DNA from: Dinghuibacter silviterrae
GTDB taxonomy: Bacteria; Bacteroidota; Bacteroidia; Chitinophagales; Chitinophagaceae
Assembly: GCF_004366355.1 (NCBI RefSeq)
Contig: NZ_SODV01000002.1
Span: forward strand, 1-64,000
Length of the DNA stretch: 64,000 bases
Direction of reading: 5' to 3'
Shown: in pieces, positions 122 through 40,905 of the stretch
Position numbering within the stretch: position 1 is the first letter of the stretch
How the letters are laid out: every line of letters begins with the position of its first letter
The notes under the pieces: model-generated
Told to the model about the DNA's origin: nothing
The model's database searches: none
The model's input: only the letters and a program-made list of their open reading frames with translations
Made by a program: the position numbers and the translations under genes

Positions 122-170
122 GTTTTGGCCCGATCCTTTAGTTTGAGAACTTAAAGGATCGGGCCAAAAC
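122..170. repeat. 19-bp perfect inverted repeat after the rRNA terminator
   Basis: Bases 122-140 (GTTTTGGCCCGATCCTTTA) are the exact reverse complement of 152-170, around an 11-nt loop. It sits directly after the 5S terminator and is unrelated to it in sequence. It could be a second terminator or the edge of a small mobile or palindromic element; its role is not known. Confidence 0.8.
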
Positions 171-13721: not shown

Positions 13722-13747
13722 AAAGGCCCCCGGTTTCGGGGGCTTTT
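13722..13747 (+). terminator. Terminator of the OmpA-like gene
   Basis: GCCCCCG / CGGGGGC stem with a GTTT loop, flanked by AAAG and TTTT that also pair. It begins 27 nt after the stop codon. Confidence 0.9.
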
Positions 13748-13753
13748 CTTTTC

Positions 13754-13785
13754 CCATATCGGTATGTCCCCATATCGGTATGTCC
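13754..13785. repeat. 16-bp tandem repeat, two copies
   Basis: CCATATCGGTATGTCC occurs twice, end to end (13754-13769 and 13770-13785). It stands between the ompA-like terminator and a long inverted repeat. Confidence 0.9.
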
Positions 13786-13795
13786 AGCGGCACGC

Positions 13796-13915
13796 GCGCC
13801 CGGGGGAGGGTAGGTAGGCTTTTTCCCCCTTTTCCTCCGGGGCTTTGAACGACGGGAATCGCTTCACTTACCGGAGGAAAAGGGGGAAAAAGCCTACCTA
13901 CCCTCCCCCGGGCGC
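13796..13915. repeat. 45-bp perfect inverted repeat with 30-nt spacer
   Basis: The left arm 13796-13840 and right arm 13871-13915 are exact reverse complements for 45 bases. Each carries GGTAGGTAGGC, a T5C5 stretch and CCTCCGG. The 30-nt centre holds no ORF. No flanking direct repeats fit a simple transposon, and no transposase is present. As RNA it would form a very stable hairpin. It may be a MITE-like or REP-like element. Confidence 0.92.
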
Positions 13916-14030
13916 ACAGGCCTAAGGCCTGGGCAGAGATGCCAGGCGAGCGGCTGGGGGCGATTTGGGAAAGATTTAGAGGCCGAAATTTGGTGGAGAG
14001 CATTTTTCCCGGCATTTTTGGCAAAAACCT

Positions 14031-40834: not shown

Positions 40835-40905
40835 GCCCGAAGGGCCATCATTAGCGGTGTTGCGGCGGCGGCCTAAATTGTCCGCTTAGGCCGCCGCCGC
40901 AACAC
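40835..40905. repeat. Palindromic repeat element, copy 2
   Basis: GCCCGAAGGGC, CATCATTAGCG, then a perfect 20-bp stem (40857-40876 with 40886-40905) around the 9-nt loop ATTGTCCGC. It matches copy 1 at 15289-15360 with a few changes, several of which keep pairing. It ends on the last base of the SDR stop codon, so it may end transcription of both sprA and the convergent SDR gene. A GGGCGCC hairpin precedes it (40817-40833). Confidence 0.88.

Follow-up and report, generated by a model that had tools for sequence, protein, structure and literature searches.

An intergenic palindrome family in Dinghuibacter silviterrae, probably lineage-restricted and kept perfect by template-switch correction

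In bacteria, long perfect palindromes are as a rule unstable, and their hairpins are attacked by SbcCD. Palindromic elements of some 100-200 bp, scattered between genes, are familiar from ERIC- and NEMIS-type repeats and from the double-hairpin elements of fungal mitochondria; ERIC and NEMIS are imperfect, and their copies are alike. Among the references on quasipalindrome correction, or template switching, is van Noort et al. 2003. Both dispersed intergenic palindromes as a kind and template switching as a process of upkeep are known already. According to excerpts of one study, template switching yields two outcomes, arm homogenization and spacer inversion (PMC8604942), and excerpts of another describe perfect inverted repeats in mitochondria that show concerted evolution, with template switching among the routes proposed (PMC6649704). 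Palindromes of E. coli are dealt with in PMC3315005, as far as its excerpt goes, and a survey of bacterial inverted repeats is, in its excerpted part, limited to arms of 6-30 bp and spacers of 0-10 bp (PMC10434271). In the literature searched, we found no report of long, near-perfect, sequence-diverse stems combined with inverted loops in one lineage. Here, we describe a real and unusual repeat family of this form which, judged from sequence, is probably a lineage-restricted set of intergenic palindromes whose perfection is maintained by template-switch correction of the DNA itself.

The window, meaning the whole stretch of 64,000 nucleotides analyzed, contains one of these palindromes. As the first-pass annotation had described, its arms (13796-13840 and 13871-13915) pair at 45/45 positions around a 30-nt loop (13841-13870), which includes the TTTGAACGA block shared with many loop-type-I copies. 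With mismatches permitted, the stem extends to 13789-13840 and 13871-13922 (52 nt, 94%). Since the runner-up among perfect inverted repeats in the window has arms of 20 bp, and eight sequences generated to the window's length under a first-order Markov model reached at most 11-15 bp, nothing as long as a perfect repeat of 45 bp is expected by chance. The surroundings likewise agreed with the earlier description: the gene before the palindrome carries an OmpA domain, and 3' of it, outside the palindrome, lie a terminator-like hairpin with a T run on the plus strand (about 13722-13752, from sequence and script) and a 16-bp tandem repeat of two identical units (13753-13784). The latter may belong to the element's flank, given that tandem repeats of flank sequence occur at other copies too. 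The right flank, ACAGGCCTAAGG (13916-13927), is identical in the copy at C2:233280-233395 (C1 and C2 denoting contigs), and the gene that follows is YfiO/BamD-like.

Going further than the first-pass annotation, we find that the window palindrome is one of 37 related palindromes dispersed between the genes of this 6.5-Mb genome. A DNA search of the genome returned two further copies, a gapped pattern brought the total to five, and a second DNA query gave additional ones. A covariance model trained on 13 copies then identified 37 places, each with E <= 1.3e-7 (73 rows, both strands counted); this search scored 150 of 2411 first-look candidates, and more distant copies may be missed. When a gapless 800 kb (C1:180001-980000) was scanned for perfect inverted repeats, 19/19 family-sized copies were also matches of the covariance model. 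Perfect inverted repeats with arms <34 bp or loops >45 nt were left out of the 37, the dropped rows including C1:410217 (arm/loop 27/9), C1:708341 (30/53) and C1:3503466 (32/27; also excluded by name). C1:478308, whose arm is split by one mismatch, was retained by name, and at C1:946202 an outer duplicate row was removed from the count.

The family copies have stems of 35-48 bp and loops of 17-35 nt, giving whole palindromes of about 100-125 bp, and a motif near CTTTTCC lies close to the loop in each. The loops fall into two types, gattcgaacga...tcgtttcggtt and ggcctgcaatgc...ggttttaa, and intermediate copies, among them the window copy (score 10 vs 9), are difficult to place. Many copies have recognizably homologous flanks, for example GACCGCGTTGCCC before and TGAGACACGCACCGGTCCGATG after the palindrome, and only one match to the flanks lay away from any palindrome within the 1.27 Mb examined. 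Flank sequence is tandemly repeated in some copies, such as C1:1046725 and C1:759030. At the former, three 53-nt direct repeats (C1:1046805-1046963; L013 1571-1729), each consisting of outer right arm plus flank, start inside the palindrome copy and continue downstream. Within C1:180-1050 kb, a range picked after the positions were known, lie 21 of the 37 copies. A link between copy positions and the origin or terminus was considered and set aside, as neither can be assigned: the sign of GC skew changes near C1:850-880 kb, and dnaA lies at C1:1447191.

The central observation concerns the contrast between arms of one copy and arms of different copies. Across all 37 copies, only 4 of 1498 arm-to-arm pairs are mismatched (0.27%), whereas arms differ from those of the nearest copy at 132 of 1390 positions (9.5% on average), about 35 times as much. 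Because the arms are near-perfect, the differences between copies must be mirrored in the second arm. In 28 near pairs, arm differences comprised 36 transitions, 45 transversions and 30 indel events, with a transversion share of 0.56 in arms vs 0.52 in unpaired loops. Read in genome coordinates, all four mismatches (4/4) are A.C, but four cases do not suffice to tell which strand might be transcribed. These data do not support the proposal that perfect arms signify recent arrival, given that 37/37 copies are perfect or near-perfect though diverged from one another; the accompanying proposal of gene conversion or active upkeep is a good fit to the low within-copy and high between-copy divergence, the mirrored changes and the loop inversions described below. 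Long hairpins are difficult to sequence, and an assembly or polishing artefact could conceivably have equalized the arms. We regard this as extremely unlikely, considering that the 37 loci lie on two contigs and have differing arms with related loops and flanks, and that 4 single mismatches survive in the arms.

Loops have been inverted between homologous copies in at least two independent cases. Between C1:759030 and C1:870074, flanks and arms share the same orientation and the loop matches only when reversed (22/24), while the loop of C1:986294 is inverted against homologous flanks relative to both C1:620790 (30/31) and C1:1046725 (28/31). In a strict all-pairs test, four pairs involving five copies passed both thresholds, three of them inverted and one not. 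Adding weaker flank signals gave loop orientations of '+' in 20 copies and '-' in 17, a split resting in part on flank scores that are weak (support 0.01 to 3.75).

Near-identical arms within diverged copies, together with inverted loops, match the published signature of template switching, namely arm homogenization and spacer inversion (excerpts of PMC8604942), and it is from this pattern only that we infer the process. As replication passes the hairpin, DNA polymerase would change template between the arms, either on a single strand or across sister strands. In such a switch, one arm would be rewritten as the complement of its partner, and the loop would sometimes flip; by this process, copies could drift apart, each staying perfect. 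With no recognizable SbcD hairpin nuclease, palindromes might persist, and they would be tolerated mainly at sites where no promoter is disturbed. As far as the excerpts of PMC8604942 go, quasipalindrome correction there gives the same two outcomes as here, but in short, unrelated repeats of yeast genes, in contrast to the dispersed and mutually homologous copies here, whose arms measure 35-48 bp and loops 17-35 nt. The nematomorph mitochondrial inverted repeats resemble ours in having long perfect arms that differ by species and are mutually identical; however, they lie inside coding genes and, in the excerpted text, are not described as one dispersed family, whereas our copies are all intergenic and homologous (PMC6649704).

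The position of the palindromes relative to genes bears on whether they act as RNA. All 37 copies are intergenic and 36 of them lie at a gene 3' end, with 23 convergent, 13 tandem and one divergent junction, compared with 109 convergent, 449 tandem and 109 divergent among 667 junctions in the 800-kb stretch; gene context came from our own simple gene-calling script, and its convergent gaps have a median of 2 bp, which hints that some of its small genes or gene ends are false. Such a distribution is consistent with palindromes being tolerated only at sites that leave promoters intact, or with their acting at gene 3' ends; on this sequence evidence, they may serve as terminators or as RNAs. Selection on a transcribed hairpin, be it a bidirectional terminator, a protector of mRNA 3' ends or a small structured RNA family, could itself keep stems perfect, and a functional RNA hairpin would show the same excess of convergent sites (23/37 vs 109/667) and of 3' ends. 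The element occupies most of convergent gaps of about 200-225 bp, and at C1:1910631 it stands alone, the counterpart in the same-genus relative G001 bearing hairpins of its own. Nevertheless, selection on RNA pairing would pass via G-U pairs and favor transitions, and neither is seen: mirrored transversions and indels match the loop in frequency, and mismatches of G-U type are almost lacking. Nor do the copies examined have the form of an intrinsic terminator, a GC-rich stem with a T run directly behind it, as no T run follows their stems; the window copy already sits behind a terminator, and gene ends facing an element had a terminator of their own in 12/59 cases vs 55/190 controls (crude script), giving no clear sign of replacement. 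We consider RNA-level selection unlikely as the cause of stem perfection. Searching Rfam gave only sub-threshold matches, nearly all to miRNA precursors, the best being mir-4484 (46.7 bits vs a gathering threshold of 90); long hairpins tend to match miRNA precursor models. At C2:232.5-234.4 kb (L008 1216-3078), a family palindrome and then an opposite-strand FAA-hydrolase gene come after the NusG gene, in the place usually taken by rplK, and the ribosomal cluster thus looks interrupted.

Beyond this genome, we detected no copies with the covariance model in 58 relatives (64 candidates scored per genome) or by DNA search in 194 other genomes of the taxonomic family. The pattern CTTTTCCGN{26,56}CGGAAAAG, applied to the phylum, had 22 places here and <=2 per genome in 394 others, about the level of the reversed control. 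In a collection of 84,980 species genomes, the pattern CTTTTCCKCMGN{26,40}CKGMGGAAAAG returned 28 stretches, none of which we judged by eye to be homologous: outward pairing scores were <=6 in 26, and the other two (L083, L084) have loops and arms unrelated to the family. A few of the 28 are simple long hairpins of other sequence, for example L065 and L076. The pattern search of viral contigs gave 0 matches, and plasmids yielded no match. In G001, four gene pairs neighboring in both genomes contain no such palindrome, with other hairpins in some of the gaps; this comparison covers 4 of 37 sites (773 kb of G001 read, N-masked rows at locus L217 ignored). G001 has perfect hairpins of its own with arms of 22-26 bp and unrelated sequence (L237 1769-1838, L218 16757-16809, L263 1019-1083), the last containing TTTTCCGCAGC, which resembles the inner arm of the family.

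Dispersed copies with homologous flanks, undetected in 58 relatives and absent from all four comparable gene pairs of G001, are what a non-autonomous element moved by a transposase would also produce, the palindrome being regenerated or selected as a recognition structure at each transposition. The earlier suggestion of such an element was borne out only in that a dispersed repeat family exists; the expected accompaniments, namely target-site duplications, an autonomous partner and a Y1 transposase, did not turn up. Specifically, no target-site duplication or sharp ends were recognized in the copy flanks examined, genome-wide matches to two query copies included no larger or autonomous element with the same arms or shared terminal inverted repeats, and a Y1 transposase had no match in this genome. 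Moreover, the copies are diverged, unlike a recent burst, and we hold transposase-driven movement to be very unlikely. REP/RAYT systems were rejected as a candidate, PF01797 giving 0 matches here against at least one in 12 of the 19 genomes searched, as were REPs of 20-40 bp with a terminal GTAG tag: the palindromes here measure about 100-125 bp and any GTAG lies inside the perfect stem. ERIC and NEMIS differ in being imperfect and uniform between copies, whereas here the sequence varies and internal perfection is kept. REPs and other GTAG- and CGTC-tagged palindromes are, in the excerpts of PMC3733652, dispersed, intergenic and mostly between convergent or unidirectional genes, as here; yet those REPs span 20-40 bp, with GTAG-family stems of 6-13 bp and many linked to Y1, in contrast to stems of 35-48 bp and no Y1 in our genome.

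Template-switch correction remains our preferred reading, and the hairpin nuclease is pertinent to it. The SbcD model had 0 matches in this genome (99.98% complete), and a clear match in G001 (174.6 bits). Among 19 genomes, nine, this one included, had no match at all, and only three exceeded the cut-off. As 8 of the 18 other relatives lack both an SbcD match and the palindrome family, absence of SbcD does not explain the family and may be permissive at best. It is quite unlikely, in our assessment, that the family is a selfish palindrome enabled by SbcCD loss, which would survive and perhaps spread by hairpin copying, with one arm resynthesized from the other time and again, loop flipping as a by-product, and new copies arising via a hairpin pathway tied to replication that needs no transposase of its own.

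The 37 internally near-perfect but mutually different palindromes preserve a natural history of copying from arm to arm, and such a genome would allow both the rate and the kinds of template switching to be measured. It further offers a direct test of whether SbcCD loss lets palindromes accumulate.

Other inverted repeats were seen alongside the family. Further long perfect ones, outside the family count, lie at C1:708341-708453 (30-bp arms), C1:3503466-3503556 (32) and C1:410217-410279 (27). A second, smaller set has perfect arms of 18-20 bp of the type GTTGCGGCGGCGGGCTAA and loops of 9-11 nt; its sites are window 40857-40905, C1:690533, 708108, 718058, 740685, 943368 and 1438446, and perhaps window 122-170, and several of these repeats have the flank ACCGCTAATGATGG in common.
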